A stretch of 41,166 bases of DNA from Oscillospiraceae bacterium (GTDB lineage: Bacteria; Bacillota; Clostridia; Oscillospirales; UBA929), in assembly GCA_031254575.1 (NCBI GenBank), contig JAIRUE010000061.1, positions 1-41,166 on the forward strand. The letters run 5' to 3'. Of the stretch, positions 5,501 to 22,877 are shown one piece after another. Position 1 is the first letter of the stretch; every line of letters begins with the position of its first letter. The notes beneath the pieces are model-generated. The model was given only the letters and a program-made list of their open reading frames with translations. It searched no databases and had not been told where the DNA came from. Position numbers and translations under genes: made by a program.

Positions 5501-7064
5501 AGATGTACAAATCGCGTATGTGACCAAACAGGAATTCGCCAAAGACAATCTCGGCGGCAAGCGCAGCGATCCCGTCGACGGTCCGGCCAACGGGCTTGGC
5601 GGGCGCGGCCCCAGCGAGTCCAATATTACAAAGACGCATATCGGCGAATGGATCCGTTACGAGCTGAACGTGGAGAAAGATGGCATGTACAAAGCCGCGC
5701 TGGGCGCTGCCAACGGCAGCGGAAAAGCGCAGACGATCCTGCTGAGAAACGCGGATCGTGACACCCTGTGTGCGTTTATCGTGCCGGAGGACGCGGCTCT
5801 CCCGGCCGGCGGTTGGGCTGAGGCCCCGATGATCGCGGCCGACAAGGAGTTTTACCTGCCCGCGGGCAGCTATATCGTCGAGCTGTACTTTATCAACGAC
5901 GGCGTGGGCATCAGCGTCTCTTCCGCCGCGAACGTCGCTTTCCCGAACGACGCCGGCAATGTCGCTTATCCGGACGGCGCGGACGTTGATATTCTGACGC
6001 TTGAGCGCGTTGGCGACGGAACGCCCCCGGTGATTGAAAAAGATCCGAGCATTTTCGTCCTCCCGCTTCCCCCGACCTCTATTCAAGGCGCTCCCGCCCG
6101 TCAAAAAGGCTGGGCAAGCGAGGGTTATGTGGACGATCAGGGGACGGTCGTCACGGGAATAAGCCTTGAGGTATTCATGGCGGCAAAGGCGCTTGTGCTC
6201 GAAGTAGCCGCGAGGCCGGCAAGCACAAACATCCAGCTGCATCTTATCCCCGAGGGGGACGGCTCCATATGGGCGGCGAACGAATCCACGCCGCAGAACA
6301 CGCCGGCGCTGGTGATGGATACCTTATACAGTGACGGAAAATTGACCTTCCCGCTTGATGAGATGCTCGGCTACGACGCCTGGAGCAAATCTCAAGACCA
6401 GTGTATGATCGACGTCAGCTACTACAGTTACGGCTGGGACGATATGAACGTCATGAAGGCATATCTGATCGTCGACCCCGCCCTTATGCCCGATGAGACG
6501 GAAAAACCGCCCGTTACCCCCGATCCCGGGCCCGCCCCCGTCCCCACCACTCCCGATCCTGACCCCGCTCCCACTACGCCCGGCTCGACCGCGGCGCTGA
6601 AAACAACCGACGGGCTCGTCAGCGTTATCCCGCCCTCGCCGGTCGTTGTGACGGCCGCGGACGGTTCCAGGACGGTCAAAGACCTCGCCTATACGGTACA
6701 AAACGGCGAAACGCTGTGGAGCGTGGCGTTCAACTACTACGGCTCGATGGGCAGCGCGGCGGTGAATAAGATCTGGAACGCGAACAAGGCGTATTTTGAC
6801 AAGACGAAAGGCGCGCTTGAAGCCGGCGCGGTCATTATTCTCCCCGGCGCGGGGCTGATAGCCCCCGTGACGCAAGGGAGCCTTGACACGGCGGCGGGCG
6901 TGTACTTAGTCAAAGCGGGCGATACGCTTGCCGACATTGCCGCGAAGTATTACGGCGACGCGAAAGAATGGAAAAAGATTTATGAGGCCAACAAGGATCG
7001 CGTCAAGATGGCCGGCAACAGCCCGATGATCTACGAAAAGCAGTGGCTTGTGATCCCCGAATAA
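2592..7064 (+). CDS. Large secreted calcineurin-type phosphoesterase with LysM wall-binding repeats
   Basis: 1,490 residues with a signal peptide (residues 1-24, cleavage after ALA). Two tandem ~177-residue repeats of unknown type follow (about 29-205 and 208-383). Next is a fibronectin-like N-domain (about 385-480) leading into a metallophosphoesterase domain (about 485-800) with ADPQ, AGDYAD, GNHDTF, LFHHD and GHDHVYAR. These match the metal-binding blocks of the purple-acid-phosphatase/calcineurin fold. After it come two FIVAR-like helical repeats (about 805-935), a carbohydrate-binding-like beta domain (about 1010-1125), and an unnamed module (1169-1290) shared with the SLH protein at 21208. 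A Pro-rich linker (about 1305-1333) leads to two LysM repeats (about 1366-1420 and 1436-1490) that would bind peptidoglycan. It probably works outside the cell on phosphate esters; the substrate is unknown. The start at 2592 has AGAGGT 8 bases upstream. Confidence 0.85.
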   Translation: MKRIFAFLLVLVMTAGFLPGIALADSDGQADPTVFEWKVFPEGTDANVTIMGTGGQVLKLDIGMDGGMLSQAESAELDFNYRVAHNSGRRVLAWTDLSGAGDEITDFTFATSARIDAGKVSVSDVITSGANSAKVKLPKALLYDEAEGKTAAALYVLMCTDEGANGKDTDQFTVEGNQRGANGRKGVNGIDLDREFDIIDTAKLTVEIDPTAFTWRVFPAGANVNFLGDDSNLLKLSDVGVDPSVLLGGKGGALEFTYRVAHNSGRRILAWTDLSGAADEVGDLSFATTANLAAGKVAVSDVLPSGTDFASVTMPKELLGDTATGKTAAEIYVLLAVDKGAEGLDDAYTDAATNQRGGVGRNGVNGIDLEKEFDIFGSVKLNVNYVSFASRISLTPGSDAAQMNFAWLTEKGSAAKAVVQLAKKADVVNGVMPKDAVSFNGRTAAGTLEFDTNKATVTGLAANTEYAYRVGDGTEWSAVYNFKTGDPDGAYSVIAVADPQIGNAKEGEAWKTTLEKAVAKAGNASFMLSAGDYADKSNSMEQWDMVTAPKVLRSLPVATAIGNHDTFDFLGEPNEQIGLMPIHFNWPNHTILNVTEGDKPFMRAGGDYYFNYGSTLYIVINTNVKDIEVHRDFMKKAVASNPNAVWTVALFHHDIYGTGDHAGTAYQDAQRMQPEWSPFLDEFGVDIAINGHDHVYARSLFMKGNEIQNDQMPATMDPLGLNIRKANPGAYVLPEGIQYMALSAAGCEKMYAPEYQDWVAYTHGMLGVPEYSVMTVDGDTLTFTSYRSDTDAVTDSITLRKTATSEDLEKLIPDCEALQSNANITGGWDAFQAAIAAGKKALESSDGIHDAYVALYDAYYAIQVNTDKAALKALIADVTDTLASAIEGMWSGQYPEGSKAVLKAVLDKETAAYTDRLSDQAAVDAAAAALSAAFKTFKDLASALDIPWVGVHKIGAAGVSEVELVGWMAGDVQIAYVTKQEFAKDNLGGKRSDPVDGPANGLGGRGPSESNITKTHIGEWIRYELNVEKDGMYKAALGAANGSGKAQTILLRNADRDTLCAFIVPEDAALPAGGWAEAPMIAADKEFYLPAGSYIVELYFINDGVGISVSSAANVAFPNDAGNVAYPDGADVDILTLERVGDGTPPVIEKDPSIFVLPLPPTSIQGAPARQKGWASEGYVDDQGTVVTGISLEVFMAAKALVLEVAARPASTNIQLHLIPEGDGSIWAANESTPQNTPALVMDTLYSDGKLTFPLDEMLGYDAWSKSQDQCMIDVSYYSYGWDDMNVMKAYLIVDPALMPDETEKPPVTPDPGPAPVPTTPDPDPAPTTPGSTAALKTTDGLVSVIPPSPVVVTAADGSRTVKDLAYTVQNGETLWSVAFNYYGSMGSAAVNKIWNANKAYFDKTKGALEAGAVIILPGAGLIAPVTQGSLDTAAGVYLVKAGDTLADIAAKYYGDAKEWKKIYEANKDRVKMAGNSPMIYEKQWLVIPE
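2831..3430 (+). repeat. Tandem intragenic duplication in the phosphoesterase gene
   Basis: The segment at 2831-2899 recurs at 3362-3430 (offset 531 bases = 177 codons) with only three mismatches that I can count in 69 bases. The flanking protein repeats are much more diverged. Both copies encode YRVAHNSGRR followed by LAWTDLSGA, and both repeats end with an NQRG...GVNGIDL...EFDI block. The near identity of one patch inside diverged repeats suggests recent gene conversion or strong constraint. Confidence 0.85.
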
Positions 7065-8297: not shown

Positions 8298-9080
8298 CTA
8301 TTCCGTTAACTCCGTACCGTGCGACCACCGTACCGGAGTCATGTAGTCGCCGTATATTCTCGAAAGAAACGAATGGTAATCTTGCGGCACCGCTATCTCA
8401 ACATCCTCAAACGGCAGCCTGACTCCCTCGCCGAACCATTCCGCACGCAATATCCCTTTTGTAATGACGCTGGTACATAAATAACCGCAATACCTTGATT
8501 CCTCCATACCATACATTGCGCTGAGCCTGTTCCTGGCCGTCAATACCTTTTCTGAATTGATCCAATTTTTCATTCTCAAACCATTCATTAACCGTATAAA
8601 AAGCCTTTGATAAAACGGCCTTTTTCGTATCCTGTTTATGGTTTCGGGCCGTGAAATCGAATACAGTTTATTATACATAACAACCAATGCGTAATGTAAT
8701 GTCCGCCTAACGGCATTATTCGGCAAGCCGTCAATAACAAGAATGTCTATATATGGATAATTTGATGCGGATGCAAGAGTATCCGTGTGATGCTTTCTGT
8801 TCTGAATATCAATCAGGCAGCCTTCCCTTTGTATTTGACTTGCAGAAACGGTAAACTCCTCATCGCAAAACAGAGGGGCGAGTTCAAGAAACCTGTTGAC
8901 TTCCTTCCTCGACATTCCCACGTCAATATCATCATCCCAGGGAATAAAGCCCTTATGGCGGACCGCGCCAAGCGCCGTACCATACAGAGCATAGTATTTT
9001 AAGTCATATTCCTCACATACGGAGATGAATTTTTTGAGTATTTCAAGCTCCAGTAATTGTAATTTCCTGTGATTACTCAT
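8298..9080 (-). CDS. LicD-family phosphotransferase
   Basis: 260 residues with the LicD signature GTALGAVRHKGFIPWDDDIDVGM at about residues 34-56; the Asp triad is the nucleotidyltransferase-fold metal site. LicD proteins move a phosphocholine or related phospho-alcohol group from a CDP-activated donor to a surface glycan. In this operon it follows the polymerase gene and precedes a CTP-dependent nucleotidyltransferase, so the two probably make and transfer the same group. No membrane segment is evident, which suggests action on lipid-linked intermediates at the inner membrane face. GGGG lies about 9 bases before the ATG. It belongs to the AT-richer part of the cluster. Confidence 0.85.
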   Translation of the reverse strand: MSNHRKLQLLELEILKKFISVCEEYDLKYYALYGTALGAVRHKGFIPWDDDIDVGMSRKEVNRFLELAPLFCDEEFTVSASQIQREGCLIDIQNRKHHTDTLASASNYPYIDILVIDGLPNNAVRRTLHYALVVMYNKLYSISRPETINRIRKRPFYQRLFIRLMNGLRMKNWINSEKVLTARNRLSAMYGMEESRYCGYLCTSVITKGILRAEWFGEGVRLPFEDVEIAVPQDYHSFLSRIYGDYMTPVRWSHGTELTE

Positions 9081-9086
9081 CCTTTG

Positions 9087-10364
9087 CTACCCCTTTGCCG
9101 CAGGTAGATTCTGCTTCCTGAAATTAAGCAATGCTTGTGGAATTACCAGTATATACAGCAGAAATAAAAACTGAATAATCCCGGAGTGAAAAAGCACTTT
9201 TGATTCAAAGAATCCATACGCGATATAGCTGAGAAACATACAAAACCCTAAATACCTATAGTTCAGCCTGGTTGCCAGCAACCTGATGTTGAGCCGCAGG
9301 CAATATATAAGCGCGAATACCAGAAATATCAATTTTATGGCTCCCCCCACAAAAAACGCTTCCAAATACACGTTGTGCACATATGAACCTCCCAACACCT
9401 CAAATTCGGCGTAACCCAGCCCGAAAATGTTTCTTACAAATGAGTTGTATCGGGCAAAAGATTCATATGTTATGCCCCAGGAGCCGACCCGCCCCGTGTC
9501 TCCGTATTGTAACCGTAGGATTTTATCATTCAGTATATATTGAAAAGAGCCGCTGCTTATATATAGCAGTAACAGACCTGACGCCGCGGCAATCACAGCG
9601 CCTCTGAGCCATGCCGTATTACGTTTCTCCATAAGCAGCAGGGTTGCCCCGAATATAGCCAGCGCGAGAAGCGCCGCCCTGGAAAATGAAGATATGAGAA
9701 GGATAAACTGTAATAACGTACCTCCTATATAGCTCTTTTTACGTTCCGTCAGATACAGGCACACTCCGGCCGCAATGGAAAAAAACAGGTAAGCTCCAAA
9801 CATGTTTTTTCCCGCAAAAAACGATTCGACGAAGGTGGCATACGCTCCTAAATTCGTTGAGAACGTGGAAATAACCTGTTCAAATTCAGTAAACAAGCCA
9901 AAAACAGACGCAATAATCCCAATATAATATATCAGCTTCAGTATTTCAGAAATCGATTCCGGAGATATTGCCCTGTCCTTCAAGAGTGAAAAACATAGGA
10001 TTATATTAAGCGCCACAAAGAAGATGTTCAAATTAAGCCCCAACGTCTTTAACGAATAGAAGATATGATCGTTAAAAAACAAAACGGGCAGCAATTGCGT
10101 GAAAAGATAGAGCATGGCTATAAACCATGGGTAGACAGACTTGAATCTGCATTTTGATAAACGGAGAAAGAGTATTAGCAAGCCCATCATATCCCATATA
10201 TGAAGGACACTGGTTCTGTCAATGGGCATGGTCCAAAAATAAGACACGGCCATGCCAATAATTTGAAACAGTATATATTGCTTTATCGCGCCGCCAACAA
10301 ACGTCTCCGCCCCACTGAGACGGATACTTTCTCCATGACTTTTTTTTAAGATGCCGGCTTCCAT
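9087..10364 (-). CDS. O-antigen ligase/Wzy-type polysaccharide polymerase
   Basis: 425 residues, almost entirely hydrophobic with roughly ten to twelve membrane spans. A periplasmic-type loop late in the protein contains NIFGLGYAEFEVLGGSYVHN followed by a Leu/Glu-rich segment. The 'GxG ... HNxYLE' pattern is that of the O-antigen ligase/polymerase (Wzy_C) family. It would polymerize undecaprenyl-linked repeat units on the outer membrane face. No Wzx flippase is seen in this window. The ribosome binding site is weak (GGATT about 14 bases upstream), and a 52-base gap separates it from the glycosyltransferase gene. Confidence 0.8.
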   Translation of the reverse strand: MEAGILKKSHGESIRLSGAETFVGGAIKQYILFQIIGMAVSYFWTMPIDRTSVLHIWDMMGLLILFLRLSKCRFKSVYPWFIAMLYLFTQLLPVLFFNDHIFYSLKTLGLNLNIFFVALNIILCFSLLKDRAISPESISEILKLIYYIGIIASVFGLFTEFEQVISTFSTNLGAYATFVESFFAGKNMFGAYLFFSIAAGVCLYLTERKKSYIGGTLLQFILLISSFSRAALLALAIFGATLLLMEKRNTAWLRGAVIAAASGLLLLYISSGSFQYILNDKILRLQYGDTGRVGSWGITYESFARYNSFVRNIFGLGYAEFEVLGGSYVHNVYLEAFFVGGAIKLIFLVFALIYCLRLNIRLLATRLNYRYLGFCMFLSYIAYGFFESKVLFHSGIIQFLFLLYILVIPQALLNFRKQNLPAAKG

Positions 10365-10416: not shown

Positions 10417-11277
10417 TTAATCCCTCAAAAACCTGCGGTATACAAACGCGCGCAAACGCACCGGCATAATGATAATAATCATATGTAATCCGAAACTGAC
10501 CATAAATTCCCCGCGGGAAAGGAAACCGTTCCTCAGCAATGTACGCTTGAGTATATAGACCTTTTTTAAGCATTCCGCGCCGCCGCGCCGCCTGTAAAAA
10601 TTCTTGCTTATCCTCACAAAATGGTGCACTTCCGGAATGTTATATATTTTACATCCGTTTTGAATCATTCTGACAATCAATTCATAGTCTTCCCCGAATC
10701 GAAGGCTCCGATAGTTTCCCGCCTCAAGAATCGCGTCTTTGCGGATTAAGCAGGAGGGATGTCTTATGGGGCACCGTTTTTTTGCAAACGATACAATAGC
10801 CTCATGTGTTTCCGGCAATATTACATGGGCGGCGACATGATCTATGGTATCAATAAACTCATCGACCAGGCAGCCGACCACGTCCAGTTCCGGACATTCA
10901 AAAAACTTTGCGTACTCTTTTTCAACGCGGTCCGGAAGGGAATAATCGTCCGCGTCCATGATGGCTATAAACTCTTCCGTACATACCAAAACCCCTTCCT
11001 TTTTCGCCAATCCCACCCCCACATTTTCAGGCAGCTGAATAATCTTAAACAATGCCGGCCACGCCTGCGCATATTCCGTTATGACCCTATCCAGCGTTTC
11101 ACCGGCCGGACCGTCTTTCACCATAACAAATTCGCACGGCTTGACAGTCTGCGCCAGCATACTGTCAACGGCCTTTTTCAGCCAATCCGGATTGTCTTTA
11201 TGATAGACGGACATCAGTACGCTGTATCTTTTTTCTCTTGCTGCCTTATCGTCCACATCCTGCCTCCCCATGCCCAT
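10417..11277 (-). CDS. Family 2 glycosyltransferase
   Basis: 286 residues of GT-A fold. YSVLMSVYHKDNPDWL opens the nucleotide-sugar-binding domain and AIMDADDYSLPDRV carries the DxD metal motif (about residues 109-122). RFGEDYELIVRM is the ED(Y)xL acceptor/base block. It adds one sugar to the lipid-linked repeat unit in the cytoplasm; sugar identity is unknown. It is the only clear glycosyltransferase besides the initiating sugar transferase in this operon, so a very short repeat unit or help from genes elsewhere is implied. It starts 8 bases before the end of cpsB, with AGGAA 5 bases before the ATG. Confidence 0.9.
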   Translation of the reverse strand: MGMGRQDVDDKAAREKRYSVLMSVYHKDNPDWLKKAVDSMLAQTVKPCEFVMVKDGPAGETLDRVITEYAQAWPALFKIIQLPENVGVGLAKKEGVLVCTEEFIAIMDADDYSLPDRVEKEYAKFFECPELDVVGCLVDEFIDTIDHVAAHVILPETHEAIVSFAKKRCPIRHPSCLIRKDAILEAGNYRSLRFGEDYELIVRMIQNGCKIYNIPEVHHFVRISKNFYRRRGGAECLKKVYILKRTLLRNGFLSRGEFMVSFGLHMIIIIMPVRLRAFVYRRFLRD

Positions 11278-11284
11278 AGTTTCC

Positions 11285-12004
11285 TCATCCCGGATCGGGA
11301 ACGCTTAACGCTTTTCCGCTGACGATACGCTCCGCGTTATCCTCCAAATATTCCGCCGTGTCCTTCCCCAGCTTGCCGCTCACCAGTTTCATGGCCCGCC
11401 CCAGCATGGGAGGCCGGTCTTTCATGGAATGGGTGTCGGTGGCGACGGCGTGCGCCAGATTGGATTTGAGCATATGCAGCGCGGTTCTTGCCGTATGCCC
11501 GCCGCACAGCAGACTGCCGGCATTGATCTGCGCGTACGCGCCGCCCCGGATCAGCAGAGCCAATTGTCCCGGATCCCGTAAAAAATACGGATACCTCTCA
11601 ACATGCGCAATAACAGGCGTTATCCCGCGCGTCCTCAACTCGTAAAACACCTTGCGTGTCAAAGGGGGGTAATGATCCGGCGGTAATTCTATGAGGATAT
11701 TGTTCGTTCCCTCTATGCAAAAAAGCCCGATCTCCATTTCCAGCAGCGCCGGTGAAAACGCCGCCTCCGCTCCGGTCAGCAGTTTGACCCCGAGGGCCGG
11801 CAAATCGCCGCAAAGCAGTTCATAAGCCTTGCGGCGATGGCGCAGGAATGAATCGGGGTCTGCGATGTCCGTCCTGAAATGTGGGGTGAGGACGATCGTT
11901 TGAACGCCGTCGTTCAGTTCGGCAAGCACCATAGACAGCGATTCCCCGGCGTCCTCCGGCCCGTCGTCAAGTCCCGGCAATATATGGCTGTGTAAATCGA
12001 CCAT
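11285..12004 (-). CDS. CpsB/CapC-family PHP tyrosine-protein phosphatase
   Basis: About 239 residues of the manganese-dependent PHP phosphatase family that dephosphorylates the CpsD/Wze tyrosine kinase. Metal ligands are visible in DLHSHILPGLDDGPED (residues 3-18), LTPHF, GAEAAF, IAHVERYPYF and VATDTHSMKDRPP. The start is ATG 12004 because GGGAG lies about 7 bases upstream and homologues begin at this DLHSH motif. The ATG-less extension to 12031 would overlap the kinase. It follows cpsD, completing a CpsC-CpsD-CpsB phosphoregulatory set for chain length and export. Confidence 0.9.
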   Translation of the reverse strand: MVDLHSHILPGLDDGPEDAGESLSMVLAELNDGVQTIVLTPHFRTDIADPDSFLRHRRKAYELLCGDLPALGVKLLTGAEAAFSPALLEMEIGLFCIEGTNNILIELPPDHYPPLTRKVFYELRTRGITPVIAHVERYPYFLRDPGQLALLIRGGAYAQINAGSLLCGGHTARTALHMLKSNLAHAVATDTHSMKDRPPMLGRAMKLVSGKLGKDTAEYLEDNAERIVSGKALSVPDPG

Positions 12005-12027
12005 GTTGCGCTCCCTGTGAGAGATCG

Positions 12028-12735
12028 TCAATAATTCTGGTAATATCCGTAATAGTAGTCGCCCGCGTTGTCCGCCTTTCGTATATCAAAGCCGTTCAGT
12101 ACCACGCCCAGCAGGTTGGCGCCGACAGCCTCCAGATTCTTTTTGGCGCGCCGCGCCTGCTCAAAAGTGACCCATTTCTGGCGCACGACCAGCAGTACGC
12201 CGTCGGCGTATTGGCTCAAAGCGGCCGCGTCGGTTACGATGGAAACTGGGGCGGTGTCCATGATAACGTAATCGTACAGTTGGGACATCTTTTGGATGAA
12301 ACTCCCCATCATCGGACTGCCCAAAACCTCCGCCGGATTCGGCGGTACGACCCCGGACGTCAGCACGCTGAATCCTTTTTTGATCATATGTATAGGGATG
12401 TTTTCCGGCATGCCGGCCCGACTCAGCACATTGGTCAAACCCCGGCTCGTACCTGTGGGGATGTTCAAATAGCGGTGCAGAGAGGGTTTGCGCAGGTCGC
12501 AGTCAATGAGCAGTACGTTGCTGCCGGATAGCGCCAGCGAAAGGGCAAGATTGATCGAAACGACCGACTTCCCTTCGTCAAGGATGGAGCTTGTTACCAC
12601 GATGCAGTTGCACTTGCCGCTCATGGACAGGAATTTCAGATTGGTGCGGAGCGAATTGACCGCTTCCTGATACTTAAACGGCGCGGTTTCAAGATGAATG
12701 GTCAAATTTTTCGCGCGGCCTTTATGCTTGCTCAT
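12028..12735 (-). CDS. CpsD/CapB-family BY-kinase (tyrosine autokinase)
   Basis: About 235 residues. It contains a Walker A variant (SSILDEGKSVVSINLA), Walker A' (VLLIDCDLRKPSLH) and Walker B (DYVIMDTAP) in the usual BY-kinase order. A C-terminal tyrosine cluster (DYYYGYYQNY) is the autophosphorylation tail. It pairs with the CpsC-like membrane activator encoded immediately upstream to control polymer export. The usual PGEGKST Walker A reads LDEGKSV here; the Lys and Ser that bind phosphate are kept. The ATG at 12735 has GAGGAG 5 bases upstream. A GTG at 12741 overlapping the cpsC stop is the alternative. Confidence 0.9.
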   Translation of the reverse strand: MSKHKGRAKNLTIHLETAPFKYQEAVNSLRTNLKFLSMSGKCNCIVVTSSILDEGKSVVSINLALSLALSGSNVLLIDCDLRKPSLHRYLNIPTGTSRGLTNVLSRAGMPENIPIHMIKKGFSVLTSGVVPPNPAEVLGSPMMGSFIQKMSQLYDYVIMDTAPVSIVTDAAALSQYADGVLLVVRQKWVTFEQARRAKKNLEAVGANLLGVVLNGFDIRKADNAGDYYYGYYQNY

Positions 12736-12737
12736 CT

Positions 12738-13436
12738 TCACTCCTCGTCCTCCACAGAAGGTATTACGCCCAGCACGGGAAGCTCGAGATATTTATTTAT
12801 ATCCTCGTCGGATATAAAGGTGTTGGAAACCGCCTTCTTTATAAACGCGTAAGCCAGAGCCGCGATGACGCCGAGCAGCGCGCCCATCGCCGTGTTGGTG
12901 CTTACGCGCGGCGATACCGGTCTGTAATTGATCTTAGGCGGCGATACGATTTCCACCGAACCGGCTTTGACCGTGCTGACCAGCAGATCCGGCGCGCGCG
13001 CCATGATCTCCTCCAATACGGCCTTGGCGATGTCCGGATTCTCATCCCGCATGGTCATGCGCATGACCTGCGTCTGGTTCACCACGTCGGCCGAAATGCG
13101 CCTGTTCAAGGACTCGACGGAATCGTTCAGCCCAAGGATCTGAATAATTTCCTCCAACAGCGTGTCGTTTGTCAGCACCACGGCGTAGGTATTGACCAGT
13201 TGTTTCGCGGAGTTGATCTGGTCGTTTGTGATGACCGTCGCCTGTTCGTCACGCGTATTGACCACCAGCGTTACGGAGGCCTCGTACTTGGGTATAAGTA
13301 AAAACTCGGACACTGAAAAAGCCGCGGCCGCGCCGAATACGGCCAGCAAAATGATCAGGGGCGTATTTTTTTTGATCAGGGAAAATATCACCCGCAAATC
13401 AACGGTCATATCCTGTTCTATGGCTGTCCCCCCCAT
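12738..13436 (-). CDS. CpsC/Wzz-type chain-length determinant and kinase activator
   Basis: 232 residues with two membrane spans (about 28-50 and 185-205) flanking an extracellular domain. The N-terminal part, VDLRVIFSLIKKNTPLIILL, and the Pro-rich segment before the second span (PPKINYRPVSPRVS) are typical of Wzz/CpsC. The C-terminal cytoplasmic tail after the second span activates the separate BY-kinase encoded next, as in other Gram-positive systems. The first codons overlap the previous gene by 19 bases; ATG 13409 is an alternative start, and neither has an obvious ribosome binding site, which suggests translational coupling. Confidence 0.85.
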   Translation of the reverse strand: MGGTAIEQDMTVDLRVIFSLIKKNTPLIILLAVFGAAAAFSVSEFLLIPKYEASVTLVVNTRDEQATVITNDQINSAKQLVNTYAVVLTNDTLLEEIIQILGLNDSVESLNRRISADVVNQTQVMRMTMRDENPDIAKAVLEEIMARAPDLLVSTVKAGSVEIVSPPKINYRPVSPRVSTNTAMGALLGVIAALAYAFIKKAVSNTFISDEDINKYLELPVLGVIPSVEDEE

Positions 13437-14272
13437 TCATTCCGCATGGGCCGTCCGCGGCGTCCAAATTTCCTCATGTTTGAACTCCGCCCGGCCAGAC
13501 ATACGGCGAGCATGGCGGCTGCGGGAATCAAGGCGATATAGTAGCCGTCAAAGAATCCGCCCAACACGGAGGAAAACAACCGTTTGAATGAATAGGGCGT
13601 GATATTCAATCCGTCAAGCGCGCCGGCCGCTCGGACGCTTAATGGCACAAGCAAATAAATCATGGCGTCGGCGCCAAATACATAAACGCCGTAGCCGTAC
13701 GCCTGACGCTTATTGTAAGCCAACAGGGCAATCACAAGACATATGGCCGTCATAATCAGGCAAACCGAGGCGATACCCAGATACCGTCTGTACCGAAGCA
13801 AGGGCTGCGCGACGCGGCGGTAAAGGGCCGGATTGGTGTGCGTGTAAAACACTTCGGCACAAAGGTCGGACAGGTCCTGCAAGCCTTCGCGCAGTTCCGC
13901 CGTGTCCTTTGCGCCGGCGCCGCGCGCGTATTCCGAAAACAACGCGTATAAACCGGCGGAGTACGCGTCATAATCAAAGGCTTGCCCTAACTGGAAAGCC
14001 GCCGCGACAGACTGCCTGACGGCGGTCGCCGCCTGCGTGTGGGTAACCGCACCTTCCATCACGCCGGAGGGTATGCCGGAAGCCGCGCCAAGCGAAAAAT
14101 AAGCCTCCCTGATGTCGTCCAGCACGAACGACGCGAACGCGCTGCCGGTTATCCGCCGAACGTGATACTCGCATGAAAACAGCGTATTCCACAGAATAAA
14201 CGCCGTGGCGACCAGCACCAGGATAAAGGACAGCATAAAAGAGAGCACAAGGGATATGCCGTGCTTTTTCAT
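13418..14272 (-). CDS. Membrane protein of unknown function in the polysaccharide operon
   Basis: 284 residues. One N-terminal membrane span (about 8-30) is followed by a ~135-residue, probably extracellular, helical domain (about 31-165). Three further spans lie at about 168-188, 197-215 and 240-265, with a basic tail. No family is recognised. It lies between the sortase and CpsC genes and overlaps CpsC, so it probably works with them, perhaps as a sensor or scaffold at the export site. The layout of an outward domain followed by a membrane bundle is like that of some two-component or secretion accessory proteins, but no catalytic motif is visible. Confidence 0.75.
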   Translation of the reverse strand: MKKHGISLVLSFMLSFILVLVATAFILWNTLFSCEYHVRRITGSAFASFVLDDIREAYFSLGAASGIPSGVMEGAVTHTQAATAVRQSVAAAFQLGQAFDYDAYSAGLYALFSEYARGAGAKDTAELREGLQDLSDLCAEVFYTHTNPALYRRVAQPLLRYRRYLGIASVCLIMTAICLVIALLAYNKRQAYGYGVYVFGADAMIYLLVPLSVRAAGALDGLNITPYSFKRLFSSVLGGFFDGYYIALIPAAAMLAVCLAGRSSNMRKFGRRGRPMRNEWGGQP

Positions 14273-14294: not shown

Positions 14295-14978
14295 TCAGGA
14301 ATATTTGTCTACCGCCGCGCCGGACAGCGGGATGCCGTAAACGAAATACCTTTGTTTTGCCGCGCCGATATAGTCGAACGGGTAACATGTATAGATAATG
14401 ATATTCTCGTCCTCTCGGCTGAAATCATATGCCGAGGAGTCGCTCATATGATATACCGCCGTGCCGGAAACCTCGTATGTATATACGCCGTAATGCGTTT
14501 CGACCGTAATGACCGCGCCGGTCTCGGCGCTTCTCAGATCTTTCAGATACGTATCGCGGTGCCCCGCAAGCAGTATGGTGCGCCCAAAGCCCGGTAGCCA
14601 CCCGCCCGTATAGGTGCCAACGCCGGCGTTCAGTTCGCGGCTTGAATCGTTCCAATAAACGGGCGCGTCGATTTCAGTGCCGGAAATGGTCAGCCGCCCG
14701 TAAAGATCGCCGCAATCCGGCATGACGATACCGCTTTCGGGGATACCCGCATTGACCGGTTCATCCGCCGAGGCAACGGGCGCCACCGTTTCGCGCGACG
14801 AAAACAAGTCGCGGGATATTTGCCGCGTTTGCCCATCGCCGCTTATAAACAAACCCGGGATGCTCAAAAACGGCTTTCCGAACAGGATGAGCGCGCCGTA
14901 AAGCAGCAAAAACGTCAACAGGACAAATACCACGGGATAGGCGAACAGCGTTGACGGACCGTGACGGGCGCGTTGCAT
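14295..14978 (-). CDS. Class D-like sortase
   Basis: About 227 residues with one N-terminal membrane span (about 13-35) and a C-terminal sortase beta-barrel. The catalytic triad is visible: His140 in LLAGHRDTYL, Cys198 in IIYTCYPFDYIG and Arg210 in AAKQRYFVYG. The TCYPF box resembles class D sortases. Sortases cut a surface protein at an LPXTG-like motif and join it to the wall or to another protein. The ATG at 14978 is chosen because AGGAG lies 7 bases upstream; ATG 14993 overlaps the upstream stop as ATGA. The gene directly upstream encodes a small protein with an IKQTG sorting-like signal, its likely substrate. Confidence 0.88.
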   Translation of the reverse strand: MQRARHGPSTLFAYPVVFVLLTFLLLYGALILFGKPFLSIPGLFISGDGQTRQISRDLFSSRETVAPVASADEPVNAGIPESGIVMPDCGDLYGRLTISGTEIDAPVYWNDSSRELNAGVGTYTGGWLPGFGRTILLAGHRDTYLKDLRSAETGAVITVETHYGVYTYEVSGTAVYHMSDSSAYDFSREDENIIIYTCYPFDYIGAAKQRYFVYGIPLSGAAVDKYS

Positions 14979-14989
14979 CTTATGACTCC

Positions 14990-15526
14990 TCATGCCGTAT
15001 CCTCACTCACCGTTCGTTTATAATAAAGCCAAAGCAAAGCAAGCGGGAAGAGCGCGGGCGCAAAGCAGCCCGCATTCAGTCCGGAACCGGTCTGCTTGAT
15101 CGGGACGGAATACGACGCGACAATCTTCCCGTTCGCGTCCGTGATGGTGACCCTCATGTTAGCCGCGTCAAAAACCAGCTTGAGGTTGACGGCTTTCACG
15201 GAATCCGTCATGTATCCGACAATGGCGTCTATCTGCCTGCGGTTCAAATCGGCCAGTTTCGCTGCGGCGCCCGCTGTTTCCAGCGCCATACGGATGTTTC
15301 CGGCGATTATATCTGCACGCCCCTCCTTATTGATAAAAGAGGCGTTTTGGGGATCGGACAGCCATTCCTTCGCGTCTGAAACATACTTGGCCAATTCCGG
15401 AAAGCGAGCGGCTATCGTATCAAAAGACGAGGTGACGTCGCCGGCATCCATGGCCAGCGCCGGAACCGGCGCAATATACATCAGCAGGATTAACAGGATT
15501 CCCGCCATAATCGTTTTGTTTTTCAC
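14990..15526 (-). CDS. Small secreted protein with a C-terminal IKQTG sorting-like signal
   Basis: 178 residues. A signal peptide covers residues 1-25 (cleavage near ALA). The mature part is short and helical (about 26-105), followed by a small beta segment (VNLKLVFDAANMRVTITD, then GKIVASYSVP). The C-terminus has the three parts of a sortase signal: IKQTG (143-147), a hydrophobic stretch (FAPALFPLALLWLYY) and a basic end (KRTV). IKQTG is not the canonical LPXTG, but keeps the T-G cleavage pair. It overlaps the sortase gene by an ATGA junction, the strongest reason to call it the sortase substrate. GTG 15526 has GGAGG 8 bases upstream. Its function is unknown; a glycan or assembly anchor is a guess from context. 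Confidence 0.8.
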   Translation of the reverse strand: MKNKTIMAGILLILLMYIAPVPALAMDAGDVTSSFDTIAARFPELAKYVSDAKEWLSDPQNASFINKEGRADIIAGNIRMALETAGAAAKLADLNRRQIDAIVGYMTDSVKAVNLKLVFDAANMRVTITDANGKIVASYSVPIKQTGSGLNAGCFAPALFPLALLWLYYKRTVSEDTA

Positions 15527-15531
15527 GCGGC

Positions 15532-16023
15532 CTACCTCCGTTTGCCAAAATGATTACCCGAAACTGCCCGGATGCAGAGCGCGAAAAAGCAGCATACAAA
15601 CAACCCGGCTAATGAGGACGCGGCGTTAACGAGAAAGCCGTTTATATAGAAGTGTCCATCCGGGACAGACCGCTTCAGCCATTCACCGGCAAAACCCGCC
15701 GATACGCAAAGGACGCCCGTCAGCGCCAGCAAATTAGCACGGGTCTGATAGCCGCGCCCCCGCTGTACCCACAACCCGGACACGGCGCCTAACAGACAAT
15801 AAAGCGCCACATGGGTCCATTCGTGTATCCTTATGTTCAGCGAGGCGAACTCGTCAGGCGGGAACTCGCGCCGGAAGAAAACGTCGGCGGCATACCGGGT
15901 GATTCTGAGGCTGTCACGATAGGCCTGTTCCCCGCCGCGCGAGGAATAAAGGATAATCGCGGCCGCGCAAGTTGCGGTTATGAGAATATGAAAGATAAGG
16001 CCGATAATTTTATACGCTTTCAT
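15532..16023 (-). CDS. VanZ-like membrane protein
   Basis: 163 residues with four predicted membrane spans. The pattern IHEWTHVALYCLLGAVSG followed by GEWLKRSVPDGHFYINGFLVNAASSLAGLF matches the VanZ-like family ('K..HF..Y..LG' then 'DE..Q...pgR...D...N..G'). VanZ confers low-level teicoplanin resistance in enterococci; most relatives in polysaccharide clusters have no known activity. It overlaps the sugar transferase stop (ATGA at 16020-16023), so it is translationally coupled to it. The tryptophan and acidic residues of the second block are altered relative to the usual motif. Confidence 0.75.
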   Translation of the reverse strand: MKAYKIIGLIFHILITATCAAAIILYSSRGGEQAYRDSLRITRYAADVFFRREFPPDEFASLNIRIHEWTHVALYCLLGAVSGLWVQRGRGYQTRANLLALTGVLCVSAGFAGEWLKRSVPDGHFYINGFLVNAASSLAGLFVCCFFALCIRAVSGNHFGKRR

Positions 16024-16718
16024 ATCCCGGTTTTTCGGATTACCGCTCCAAAAGTCAGAAAAGCAATTTTTATATCCAGAAGCGGGGAAAATTTCGATAC
16101 ATAACTCAATTCCATGCCAATTCTTTCCTCATATGTGGTGTCATTTCGTCCATTGACCTGCCAGTATCCGGTCAGTCCCGGCTTAACGCTGAGAAAAAAA
16201 TGCCTTTGATCCCCGTATTTTTCCAATTCGTCACGCACGATCGGGCGGGGGCCGATCAGGGAAAGGTCGCCTTTCAGGATGTTGACTAACTGCGGCAGTT
16301 CGTCCAGACTTGTCTTTCGCAAAAACGCGCCCGTTTTTGTGACCCTCGGGTCGGCGGCCAGCTTAAAATCTTTTACAAAAACCTTTTGTTCTTCCGGGCT
16401 GAGCGACGCTTTCCAATCCTCCGCGTTCGCTCTCATGGTGCGGAATTTGCAGATCATGAACGATAAGCCGTTCCTTCCGATCCGCTCCTGACGGAAAAAA
16501 ACAGGGCCCTTGCTGTCCCTCTTGATGATAACCGCGACGGCGAGAAACAGCGGGGCCAAAATAACAAGGCCGGTAAACGACAACAGTATATCCAGCAACC
16601 GCTTCAATGGCAGGTACATTCGCTGGGCGTCGGAAAGCGTATGCCGTGGATGTATGTATACCTCACCGGGACCGGGGGCTTCGTCCACCGCCATACGAGG
16701 CGCATTGGTCTGGTCCAT
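16020..16718 (-). CDS. Bacterial sugar transferase (initiating phosphoglycosyltransferase)
   Basis: About 232 residues of the monotopic phosphoglycosyltransferase family (WcaJ/PglC core). A hydrophobic re-entrant helix (KRLLDILLSFTGLVILAP) is followed by PVFFRQERIGRNG, MICKFRTM, SLDELPQLVNILKGD and LSLIGPRP. Close to the C-terminus is KPGLTGYWQVNGR. It moves a sugar phosphate to undecaprenyl phosphate and starts each repeat unit. It is the first gene of the operon behind a strong promoter. ATG 16718 has GAGGTG 6 bases upstream; GTG 16727 is an alternative. The protein lacks the N-terminal multi-span part of WbaP/WcaJ and is of the short type. Confidence 0.92.
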   Translation of the reverse strand: MDQTNAPRMAVDEAPGPGEVYIHPRHTLSDAQRMYLPLKRLLDILLSFTGLVILAPLFLAVAVIIKRDSKGPVFFRQERIGRNGLSFMICKFRTMRANAEDWKASLSPEEQKVFVKDFKLAADPRVTKTGAFLRKTSLDELPQLVNILKGDLSLIGPRPIVRDELEKYGDQRHFFLSVKPGLTGYWQVNGRNDTTYEERIGMELSYVSKFSPLLDIKIAFLTFGAVIRKTGI

Positions 16719-16752
16719 TGTCTGCACCTCTTCCGCACCTCAGACTGGTGAT

Positions 16753-16991: not shown

Positions 16992-18989
16992 TTGGGAGTG
17001 ACGTTTTTGGTGGCTTGGATGGTTGTCCCGAGGCTGCTCGCGGGTGTTGCGGTTGTATATGTGCTGTTTTTCTTCTATATGGTTTACCGGTTGGAACGGG
17101 TACGCCCGCAAACCCTCGAATGGGTGGAACGGCGGAGAAAACCGGCTTTTGAGCTCAGCCGCGCCGGCGCGCTTGCGAGCAGTGATATACTGCCCGTTCT
17201 GCTCATCACGGCGGCGTATGCCGCCGCCACCTTCTTAAACCTGGGGAATATGGTGTCCCCGCAATCTTTTCACCGGTTTGAGCAGGGCGACGCCCCGATT
17301 GTGATAGAGCTGAAGGAACCGGCAAAAATCGAGAAAATCTTTTATTTCACGGGACTTCACCACGGCAGCGGCCAGCGGGCGTACCGGCTGGACTTTTCCG
17401 CGGACGGCGCGGCGTGGCGCAGCGGGATCAAGCTGGAGTGGAACAGCTATTTGGAGCGGTATGTGGAAGTCGCGGCGGAAGGGCTTCCGCAGGAGTATTC
17501 CCGGACATTCCGCTGGGATGCTTTGAACCTGGTGGCGGATACGATGGGCGATACGCGCTTTCTCCGCATCTCCGCCGTCTACGTCCCGCTGGAACTGGGG
17601 GAGATGTCCATCTTCGTGCGGGATACCGCGAATGGCGGCCAGCGGGTCCTCTCCGCCGCCGACTTGGTGTATCCCGAAAACGCGGCGGGGCTGTTCGACG
17701 AGCCGGAAGCCGTCCCCGCGCGCTATGATGTGCTCAACTCCACGCATTTTGACGAGATATACCACGCCCGCACGGCCTACGAGCATTTGCGCGGCATTTA
17801 TCCCTATGAAAAGACGCACCCGCCGCTGGGTAAACTGATTACCGCCGCCGGTATCGCCCTGTTCGGCATGACGCCGTTCGGCTGGCGCTTCATGCCCGCG
17901 CTGTTCGGCGTGTTGATGGTCCCGCTGCTCTACATCCTGCTCAAGTGGATGTTCGGAAAGACGCGCGTCGCCGTGTGCGGCACGCTGCTGTTCGCGTTTG
18001 ATTTTATGCACTTTGTCCAGACGCGCATCTCCACCATCGACGTCTACGCCGTGTTTTTCATTCTGTGCATGTACCTGTTCATGTACCGCTATATCACCTC
18101 GGGTCCGGACGCGCCGTTTTGGAAGGCGGCCCCGCCGCTGATCCTCGCGGGGCTGTCGTTCGGGATCGGCGCGGCGGCGAAGTGGGTGTGTATTTACGCA
18201 GGGGCGGGACTGCTGGCGCTGTTTTGCGTGTATTTAGTCCGCCGCGCCAGATATTACCGCCGGATGGAACGCAGTTTCCTGCCGTTTTTCCTCGGAACGC
18301 TTCTGGTCGCGCTGTTCTCCTTTATCATCATCCCCGGCGTGATTTATGTCGCCTGCTATATCCCCTACGCGGCGGCGCGTACTCCCCTGACGCTGACAGG
18401 GGGATTAGGGGATATTCCGGCGTTTATCAGGTCGGTGTGGGAGGAATGTTTCCAAAATCAGTCCTATATGTATCACTACCACTCCGGGCTGGAGGCGACG
18501 CACGATTACGCCGCCCGCTGGTATGAGTGGCTGTTCGACTGGAAGCCGATCATGTATTACTGGAACCCCATCAGGGAGGCGGGGACGCGCGGTTCCCTCT
18601 GGGCGTTCACCAACCCGCTTGTCACATGGGCGGGGCTGGGCGCGCTGGCTTTCTGCGGATACGGGCTTTACAAACGCCGGAGTCATACGGCGCTGTTTAT
18701 CCTGATCGGCTACCTCTCGCAGCTTCTGCCGTGGATACCTATTTCGCGGATCACTTTCCCGTACCACTATTTCCCTTCTATGCTTTTCCTCTGTATTGCC
18801 CTCGCCTGTCTCTTTGACCGCATAGTCGAGCGGGACCCCGTGCGGGGGACGCGGCAGATGGTCATTTTTACCGTCGCGGCAACGGCCCTGTTTGTGTTAT
18901 TCTATCCCTCCCTGACGGGTACGCAGGTCCCCGAGTGGTATCCGAAGTACCTGTTGCGGTGGCTGTCGCATAAAAACTGGCTGATGTGA
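16992..18989 (+). CDS. PMT/GT39-family protein O-mannosyltransferase
   Basis: 665 residues with a ~10-span membrane architecture. The catalytic Asp-Glu lies in the first outward loop (STHFDEIYHARTAYEHLRG, about residues 251-269) and is followed by THPPLGKLI, the PMT signature. The N-terminus holds two membrane spans separated by an outward beta-rich insert (about residues 95-235) with the sequence character of a carbohydrate-binding (F5/8-like) domain. It transfers mannose from a polyprenyl-phosphate donor to Ser/Thr of secreted proteins. The frame opens just after an in-frame TAA at 16983; TTG 16992, GTG 16998 and ATG 17019 are possible starts, and none has a good ribosome binding site. The LysM and SLH proteins of this window are plausible substrates, by inference only. 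Confidence 0.85.
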   Translation: MGVTFLVAWMVVPRLLAGVAVVYVLFFFYMVYRLERVRPQTLEWVERRRKPAFELSRAGALASSDILPVLLITAAYAAATFLNLGNMVSPQSFHRFEQGDAPIVIELKEPAKIEKIFYFTGLHHGSGQRAYRLDFSADGAAWRSGIKLEWNSYLERYVEVAAEGLPQEYSRTFRWDALNLVADTMGDTRFLRISAVYVPLELGEMSIFVRDTANGGQRVLSAADLVYPENAAGLFDEPEAVPARYDVLNSTHFDEIYHARTAYEHLRGIYPYEKTHPPLGKLITAAGIALFGMTPFGWRFMPALFGVLMVPLLYILLKWMFGKTRVAVCGTLLFAFDFMHFVQTRISTIDVYAVFFILCMYLFMYRYITSGPDAPFWKAAPPLILAGLSFGIGAAAKWVCIYAGAGLLALFCVYLVRRARYYRRMERSFLPFFLGTLLVALFSFIIIPGVIYVACYIPYAAARTPLTLTGGLGDIPAFIRSVWEECFQNQSYMYHYHSGLEATHDYAARWYEWLFDWKPIMYYWNPIREAGTRGSLWAFTNPLVTWAGLGALAFCGYGLYKRRSHTALFILIGYLSQLLPWIPISRITFPYHYFPSMLFLCIALACLFDRIVERDPVRGTRQMVIFTVAATALFVLFYPSLTGTQVPEWYPKYLLRWLSHKNWLM

Positions 18990-21207: not shown

Positions 21208-22839
21208 TTATTTTTTCCCTATCTGCTCGACTTTCACATCGTCCGGGGTTCCTTCATAGCATTTGGAAACGTCTACAAAATAAGTGCCGGCTGTAACGCC
21301 GTTCGCGGGAGCCGAGGATTCGCCGCCAAACCTATAAATCAACACTTTTGTGCCTTCGGGAACGGGGCTGTCGGCGGAGTACGCGGAATCATCGCCATAT
21401 TGCCCCGCTTGTTCGTAGTTGATTGACCACAGGGGCGGAACGCCGTCCATATCGGCTCCTGAAATAACAACATTTCCGTCCGCGTCGTAGAGAAGGAAAG
21501 CGCGTTTCGCCTCGGGATCCTTGCCATCCTCAGAGATAGCCGTGAGGAAAGTGGCGTCGCCGGTGAGTGTGACCTTGATCAAAAACTGCCACCCTTCCGC
21601 CGCGGCGCCGAGCGTCACTTCATATGTTTCAGCTTCCGGCTCCTCGCCTTCTTCGCCTTCCTCACCCTCTTCTCCCTCTTCGCCTTCCTCGCCCTCGCCC
21701 GCGTCAAAAGTCTTGCCGCCTGAGGAGCGGGACTCGAGGTCAACAAGCTTCATGAAGATAACGGCGCTTTCGTCGCGTCTTACAAGGTCGTCGGCGCCGA
21801 ATGTGGTGGATGTGTTCCCGTCTTCGTCGGTGTCAGCCGCTTTGCCGCTGACAATACCGGCCTCATAAAACAGTTTGATGTCGTCATAATATTCATCGCC
21901 CGGTTTTACGTCTTTTGCCGAAACAAAAGTGCTGACCGCTTCCATGTCTTCCTCAGGCAGAATTCCGGCCCAAATGTGAATCAATTCGGCGCGGGTGGCG
22001 GCGTCGTCCGGCGAGCGTGTGCCGCCGGTAAAAGCGGCCGCGTCGGCCATTGTGATGATACCGTTATCCCGCGCGTAGAGAACATATTCTTCTTGATTCG
22101 TGGGGTAGTTGGCGCTGGTGCCGCCGTTGTACTTCACATGGATCTTGCTGGCGACGACGATCGCCTGATACACTGACATATTGCCCGCCGGATCGAACTT
22201 ATCGCCGCCGACGCCGGCCACGATGCCATACTCAAAGGCTTTGATGACCCATTCTTTCATGCTGCCGATGTCGTCGATGTCGGAGAAATCGTCGGCGTAG
22301 GTTTTGGTCTTTTGGATGTTGTCAAGGCTGGGCTCGCCGCCGGGTTCGCCGCCATCACCATCGCCGTCGCCGGGGTCCTCGCCGTCGGTGACAAGATACG
22401 CCTCGGTGAGGCCCAAGTCATCAATACCGTCGGAGTAATAGGCAATAAAGAATTTTGCCTTTGTGGCGTCTTTGAGAGCGTCGAAACCATCCATATCGGC
22501 CAGGACAATGTCAAAGCTGGTTTCGGATATGCCGGCCTCGGGCATGACGACAGTCTGGTTCCACTTATAGGCGTCTCCGTCGGATTGGATGATAAACTGC
22601 ATTCCGCCGGCCGGAGGAGCGGCAAACTCAAGGTGAAGCGCCGTCGCCGAACGCAGCTGCTCAATGGTCAGCGAGCTTTCGATGTCGTCCATTCCGTTTG
22701 TGACCCAGCCCTTTTGCTGTGGGTTGTTTTCAATATTCATTTCGCCTAAATCGATGTTCGCCGCGAAGGCGGGCACGGACACCATGCCGATGACAAGCGC
22801 CAGCGCCATCAGCAATGACAGGGCTTTGCGTGTTTTCAT
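21208..22839 (-). CDS. S-layer-homology (SLH) surface protein
   Basis: 543 residues. A signal peptide (1-26, AFA) is followed by a ~110-residue module (42-152) homologous by eye to the module at residues 1169-1290 of the LysM phosphoesterase. A Gly/Asp/Glu linker (about 153-175) leads to three SLH repeats (about 185-370: FSDIDDIGSMKEWVIKAFEYG, then TRAELIHIWAGI, then DVKPGDEYYDDIKLFYEAGI). These bind pyruvylated wall polysaccharide. A (GEE)n stretch (about 385-403) separates a C-terminal beta domain (YEVTLGAAAEGWQFLIKV onward) of unknown type. The ATG at 22839 has GAGGAGG 7 bases upstream. It is probably a major wall-bound protein; the strongly acidic composition fits. Its promoter and terminator are both visible, so it is a single-gene transcript. 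Confidence 0.88.
   Translation of the reverse strand: MKTRKALSLLMALALVIGMVSVPAFAANIDLGEMNIENNPQQKGWVTNGMDDIESSLTIEQLRSATALHLEFAAPPAGGMQFIIQSDGDAYKWNQTVVMPEAGISETSFDIVLADMDGFDALKDATKAKFFIAYYSDGIDDLGLTEAYLVTDGEDPGDGDGDGGEPGGEPSLDNIQKTKTYADDFSDIDDIGSMKEWVIKAFEYGIVAGVGGDKFDPAGNMSVYQAIVVASKIHVKYNGGTSANYPTNQEEYVLYARDNGIITMADAAAFTGGTRSPDDAATRAELIHIWAGILPEEDMEAVSTFVSAKDVKPGDEYYDDIKLFYEAGIVSGKAADTDEDGNTSTTFGADDLVRRDESAVIFMKLVDLESRSSGGKTFDAGEGEEGEEGEEGEEGEEGEEPEAETYEVTLGAAAEGWQFLIKVTLTGDATFLTAISEDGKDPEAKRAFLLYDADGNVVISGADMDGVPPLWSINYEQAGQYGDDSAYSADSPVPEGTKVLIYRFGGESSAPANGVTAGTYFVDVSKCYEGTPDDVKVEQIGKK
21641..21708. repeat. 9-bp repeat encoding Gly-Glu-Glu tracts
   Basis: Six or more copies of a 9-bp unit (CTCGCCTTC/CTCTTCGCC on the plus strand) encode (GEE)n in the SLH protein. 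It is in frame, and copy-number variation would change only linker length. Confidence 0.85.
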
Positions 22840-22877
22840 TATGTATTTCCTCCTCATAAATTTAGTAGCTTGTTCAA

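Follow-up and report, generated by a model that had tools for sequence, protein, structure and literature searches.

We find that the window, by which we mean the whole stretch of 41,166 nucleotides of Oscillospiraceae DNA analysed here (contig JAIRUE010000061.1), carries a three-gene module within a Wzy-type polysaccharide operon: a small secreted protein, a sortase and a membrane protein of 284 residues, encoded in that order. The same genes recur together in other bacteria, often directly beside the genes for CpsB, CpsC or CpsD, and the small protein ends in a sorting motif that is absent from the curated signal models searched. This suggests that the module couples protein anchoring to the export of surface sugars in a way that has not been catalogued.

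The module and its operon

The operon lies on the minus strand. It begins with the initiating sugar-phosphate transferase (16020..16727; PF02397, 214.7 bits), followed by a VanZ-like membrane protein (15532..16023; NF037970, 20.4 bits, cut-off 20), the small secreted protein of 178 aa (14990..15526), the sortase of 232 aa (14295..14993) and the membrane protein that is the third member of the module (13418..14272). Then come a CpsC-type chain-length determinant with a Wzz domain (12738..13436; PF02706, with TIGR01006 as the best NCBIfam match), a CpsD-type tyrosine autokinase with a Tyr-rich C-terminus (12028..12741; TIGR01007, above its cut-off), a CpsB-type phosphatase (11285..12031; PF19567, 151 bits), a family 2 glycosyltransferase (10417–11277; Pfam), a probable polymerase (9087–10364), LicD (8298–9080; Pfam) and a cytidylyltransferase. 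The probable polymerase is a multi-TM protein with no Pfam match, so named from its hydrophobic sequence and its place. An initiating transferase together with CpsB, CpsC, CpsD and glycosyltransferases, as recognised by Pfam and NCBIfam, identifies the whole as a Wzy-type polysaccharide operon.

An earlier note on this DNA had placed the sortase and the small protein between the initiating sugar transferase and the CpsC/D/B genes, and the PF02397 match and the Pfam and NCBIfam assignments of the neighbours bear this out; the VanZ-like gene, which had gone unmentioned, is found there as well. It has an identical position at a second locus (L011) and lies close to the module at a third (L074). 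The overlap described between the stop of the small protein and the start of the sortase can be read directly from the sequence as a 4-nt ATGA at 14990..14993 on the minus strand, in which the TGA stop of the one meets the ATG start of the other. Just upstream of the operon and on the opposite strand begins a gene of the protein O-mannosyltransferase family (16992–18989, plus strand; PF02366, PF16192), the product of which could have secreted proteins, the small substrate among them, as its targets. Further away, a plus-strand gene at 2592–7064 encodes a secreted protein of 1490 residues with purple-acid-phosphatase/metallophosphatase domains and a C-terminal LysM.

The enzyme of the module is a member of the sortase family (PF04203, 74.5 bits against a cut-off of 26.6) with an N-terminal membrane anchor and the catalytic residues His145, Cys203 and Arg215, which are identical in all 96 aligned sortases. 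The class D models score highest among the class models, yet stay under the NCBIfam cut-offs: NF033746 gives 103.2 bits against 165, and the LPxTATN-specific SrtD model 107.8 bits against 140. Because the best class is D and the score is under the curated cut-off, the label "class D-like" given in the earlier note, along with its intact His-Cys-Arg triad, is the right one. The closest solved chains are 2ln7, which we take to be the class D sortase of Bacillus anthracis, and 8t28, with 4d70 next. We rejected a class C sortase of a pilus system: the class C model gives 37.5 bits against 160, and the single substrate, with a mature length of about 120 residues, has no pilin domain match.

Close relatives of the sortase that lack an adjoining small protein were seen at three loci (L121, 8701–9453; L132, 8746–9441; L149, 8992–9666). 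In addition, a sortase 47% identical to that of the window is encoded at 2827–3411 of MT836157.1, a 12.8 kb fecal record from a phage collection labelled Bacteriophage sp.; it may represent a bacterial contig under a wrong label or else a mobile copy.

The small protein and its sorting signal

The gene for the small protein starts with GTG, preceded by GGAGG. A signal peptide (residues 1–25) ending in PALA is followed by a helical domain (about 28–112), a beta element (116–140), the motif IKQTG (143–147), a hydrophobic segment and a basic tail that reads YYKRTVSEDTA; the codons of the motif, positioned from the translation, lie at 15086..15100 on the minus strand. In the AlphaFold model (mean pLDDT 70) the helical domain and the short beta element are followed by a disordered linker that contains the motif, and by a tail helix. 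The coordinates, the frame and the motif of this secreted protein, with its hydrophobic stretch and basic tail, are all as first described, and cleavage is predicted to occur between Thr146 and Gly147. A signal peptide, a short motif, a hydrophobic segment, a basic tail and an adjoining sortase make up the general layout of a sortase substrate, and this layout is conserved in the homologues.

An alignment of 90 small proteins, including that of the window, gives the motif [IVL]-K-x-T-G, with I, V or L in 84, K in 77, T in 88 and G in 87 of the 90, and a hydrophobic core with a K/R end is present in 85 of 88 tails. Outside the T and the G most of the homologues are less than 25% identical to the window protein, and since these two residues are kept in such otherwise diverged proteins, the motif is conserved beyond chance. 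At the column level, conservation of 70% or more is confined to the signal peptide, a single Ala, a single Gly, the sorting motif and a tail Lys. The check proposed in the earlier note, namely whether homologues lose the TG, was run, and with the TG motif retained in 87 of 90 the pairing of the two genes survives it. It could be argued that a TG-containing tail lies beside an unrelated sortase by coincidence, as the single-sequence motif searches in Pfam and NCBIfam returned no anchor match: the window protein does not match the LPXTG-type models PF00746 and TIGR01167 at E ≤ 1, and PF00746 matches weakly in 2 of 14 homologues. The conservation of motif, gene order and tripartite tail across some 90 loci in several families refutes this explanation, which we hold to be exceedingly improbable.

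Among the variants, the four loci with GTQTG or GVQTG (L092, L116, L124 and L127) and the two with LPFTG (L074 and L075) fall in supported sortase clades of their own, a pattern to be expected where enzyme and signal evolve together. With Lys in place of the Pro, the motif has no counterpart in the curated signal models searched and is an addition to the known sorting motifs, and in the open-access literature we found no report of an [IV]KxTG sorting signal. PDB sequence and fold searches with the small protein were empty (best Z 4.7), and no carbohydrate-binding domain could be recognised in it. Scanning genome contigs with the single small protein found nothing, because the protein diverges too fast for peptide patterns, and at the family level its profile drew so many signal-peptide matches that full-length matches alone were used.

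To count substrates, we searched nine whole genomes that contain the module with a profile restricted to the C-terminal signal. The top match in each was the small protein of the module itself (E ≤ 4e-13); as the profile was built partly from these same proteins, the strength of these matches is by construction, and the absence of others is the result. In the window's genome the own small protein is the sole match at E ≤ 10, while one other genome (G035) has a second match at 2.7e-5 and the other matches in the nine genomes are at noise level. Judged from these sequences, the module has one sortase for one substrate. A sortase with other main substrates, for which the small protein is minor or regulatory, as with housekeeping sortases, might be suspected from the two further sortases and the Gram-positive anchor-like tails present elsewhere in the window's genome. 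Those tails, however, adjoin another sortase and have the motif AKTGD, and the search with the IKxTG profile yielded no second protein here; we reject the housekeeping reading and regard it as very improbable.

On contig C6 of the same genome (L017, 10377–12317) three tandem small proteins end in AKTGDG(A/T)MI, a hydrophobic stretch and ARKVKA, and they sit upstream of a second, larger sortase (8446–10266). Contig C6 thereby has a second dedicated sortase locus with a different motif. The window also encodes an SLH-domain protein (21208–22857, minus strand), the N-terminal part of which is closely like one of the AKTGD-tailed proteins of contig C6 (IDLGxMN...QKGWVTxGMDDI...), and one secreted domain thus appears to carry an SLH anchor in the window and a sortase signal on contig C6.

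Spread of the module and linkage to CpsB/C/D genes

Profile searches in the order and the class, and a sortase scan of named genomes, gave 95 distinct further loci. They were picked by sortase likeness, and the neighbouring genes are therefore an independent observation. The small protein adjoins the sortase at 92 of the 95 loci and the membrane protein is present after the sortase at 89, with three of the remaining six truncated where the contig ends. A single rearranged copy, with the order sortase-membrane-small, was seen (L073, 25–2327). The membrane protein, which had been proposed to belong with the pair, does so, and the conserved motif and module order across loci support a dedicated sortase-substrate pairing, of which we are highly confident. 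Pairwise-distance matrices of the small protein and the sortase correlate with r = 0.73, and those of the other two pairs with 0.80 and 0.84, a correlation that may in part reflect shared species history alone. The carriers are mainly gut bacteria of the Oscillospirales and also include Thomasclavelia (Erysipelotrichales); among those in culture are Gemmiger formicilis, Fournierella, Clostridium methylpentosum and Thomasclavelia. The distribution is patchy, the module being absent from all five same-genus genomes tested.

A gene for CpsB, CpsC or CpsD adjoins the module at 45 of the 95 loci. Within flanks of up to 9 kb each way, the gene lies no more than 500 bp from the edge of the module at 37 loci and no more than 1255 bp from it at all 45. 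CpsB is near the module at 30 of the 95 loci, where about 0.4% would be expected by chance, a figure based on its density in the order (47 matches in 98 genomes, or about 0.4% of random stretches of that length). The linkage takes three forms: downstream on the same strand (10 loci and the window), upstream on the same strand (15) and divergent (20). Each needs at least three to four changes on the sortase tree even when well-supported branches alone are counted, and the arrangements arose several times. At L075, which belongs to another order, the succession small-sortase-membrane-CpsC-CpsD-CpsB is exactly that of the window, and at L074 the module is beside a VanZ-like gene, with flippase-like multi-TM proteins nearby. 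The link to Wzy-type export genes, claimed at first for the window, is recurrent and directly adjacent; such repeated, independent and immediate adjacency to CpsB/C/D argues for a functional tie, and we consider it probable that the role of the module is tied to polysaccharide.

At roughly half of the loci the flanks read, which extend up to 9 kb, contain no CpsB/C/D gene; the module is therefore an accessory that can be separated from the operon and is not an obligatory component of it. A search of these loci for another constant neighbour found none; DUF218 occurs at three, and VanZ, a family 2 glycosyltransferase and a polysaccharide flippase at two each. Either the tie is therefore optional, or the cps genes are located at a greater distance. 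In one genome (G039) CpsB is about 12 kb from the module on the same contig, and two order-level genomes with the module (G021 and G035) have no CpsB match at all.

These varied neighbours, together with the patchy distribution, could also fit a unit of more general use in surface display or sensing, such as a small sensor tethered to the wall together with its membrane partner, next to which the cps genes would lie through shared regulation or co-transfer; the 20 divergent, head-to-head loci are what shared regulation would produce. We think this unlikely, since adjacency was reached repeatedly and independently, in three orientations and with no locus at an intermediate distance, which exceeds what a shared neighbourhood would lead one to expect.

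The membrane partner and a proposed role in polysaccharide retention

The membrane protein has one N-terminal TM helix, a helical extracellular domain (about 34–145) and three C-terminal TM helices in its AlphaFold model (pLDDT 86). Neither this protein nor the small protein matches any family in Pfam or NCBIfam; the small substrate and its membrane partner represent two unnamed protein families. The closest structural match of the membrane protein over nearly its full length is Lit (7b0o/7b0p; Z 10.8, 187 of 216 residues aligned, rmsd 3.9), which likewise has one TM, a dome and three TMs; a transporter ranks level with it, with only 124 residues aligned. Against Lit proteins of related genomes the profile of the membrane protein reaches a match probability of 88% in local comparison and of 96% in global comparison, the latter at low alignment confidence, where three controls stay below 4%. 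The likeness rests on VIA-align and hhalign, while Foldseek returned no significant E-value and PF07314 (Lit) matched none of 13 homologues at E ≤ 0.1. As helical folds reach Z of about 13 by chance, kinship with Lit is likely but unproven. Lit works through His85 and His153 (PMC8275575), whereas the alignment of the membrane protein has no conserved His and hence no counterpart to this catalytic pair. It may therefore share the fold of Lit and not its chemistry, and we reject a Lit enzyme role for it.

The best reading of the module, to which we give an even chance, is that the sortase links its one substrate to the wall, where newly exported polysaccharide would thereby be retained or attached. 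The genes at 15526–13418 would then form a dedicated sorting unit attached to the Wzy-type polysaccharide operon. The small protein would be exported by Sec, lose its signal peptide and stay in the membrane through the hydrophobic segment near its C-terminus, until the sortase cuts IKQT-G and passes the mature protein of about 120 residues to an amino group, most likely that of a peptidoglycan precursor. The membrane protein may keep substrate and sortase together beside the CpsC/CpsD export complex, and the wall-fixed small protein might serve as acceptor, binder or spacer that keeps new polysaccharide at the surface.

The main rival to this reading is that the small protein is itself glycosylated with the polymer of the operon, through an LCP or a Wzy-linked ligase, before it is sorted; the sortase would then join polysaccharide to the wall via a protein. 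There is a precedent in Actinomyces oris, where LcpA-dependent glycosylation of the sortase-anchored surface protein GspA is established and thereby connects sorting with polymer transfer (PMC6381275), and the substrate gene does lie inside a polysaccharide operon. Unlike that system, the window operon contains no LCP: the sole LCP ligase gene of the genome is on contig C25, and no class of glycosylation site is conserved in the small-protein alignment. The LCP gene elsewhere in the genome leaves room for either model, but we judge the one with glycosylation rather improbable.

Dedicated sortase-substrate pairs are already known, as is sorting tied to exopolysaccharide genes in outer-membrane bacteria. 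Class D sortases (C. perfringens SrtD, 4d70; 2ln7) are the closest enzyme family in profile searches and include some of the closest solved structures, and in Clostridium perfringens the substrate also adjoins the enzyme, SrtD being reported to share an operon with an LPQTGS anchor protein (PMC4498605). Class D systems have LPxTA- or LPQTGS-type signals, whereas the module has [IVL]-K-x-T-G with Lys in the Pro position, a score below the class D cut-off, a constant third membrane gene and cps linkage; the plasmid class D relatives examined adjoin large adhesin-like or pilin-related proteins and not the small protein of the module. The PEP-CTERM/EpsH system similarly combines a C-terminal sorting signal and a transpeptidase-like enzyme with a link to exopolysaccharide genes, with PF02397 and PF02706 genes beside the enzyme, and has been described in outer-membrane bacteria and not in Firmicutes, with a median of eight substrates per genome (PMC1569441). 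EpsH, however, is a membrane protein of another family that acts with a PEP motif and usually many substrates, where the module has one. Having the motif IKxTG and a PF04203 sortase, the module is not a PEP-CTERM/exosortase system. Tentatively, it may be a Gram-positive counterpart of exosortase-exopolysaccharide systems, in which the sortase fixes one small carrier, a Lit-like partner guides it, and Wzy-type polysaccharide is held at the wall, covalently or at least tightly, via a protein and not (only) by an LCP ligase.

In the open-access literature we came across no sortase module described as recurring within CpsB/C/D operons of Firmicutes, and earlier notice elsewhere is possible. To our knowledge, the retention of capsules and exopolysaccharides on the surface of gut Clostridia is largely unexplained. 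A small, repeatedly cps-linked module of one sortase and one substrate offers a direct handle on how surface polysaccharide is retained in these bacteria.
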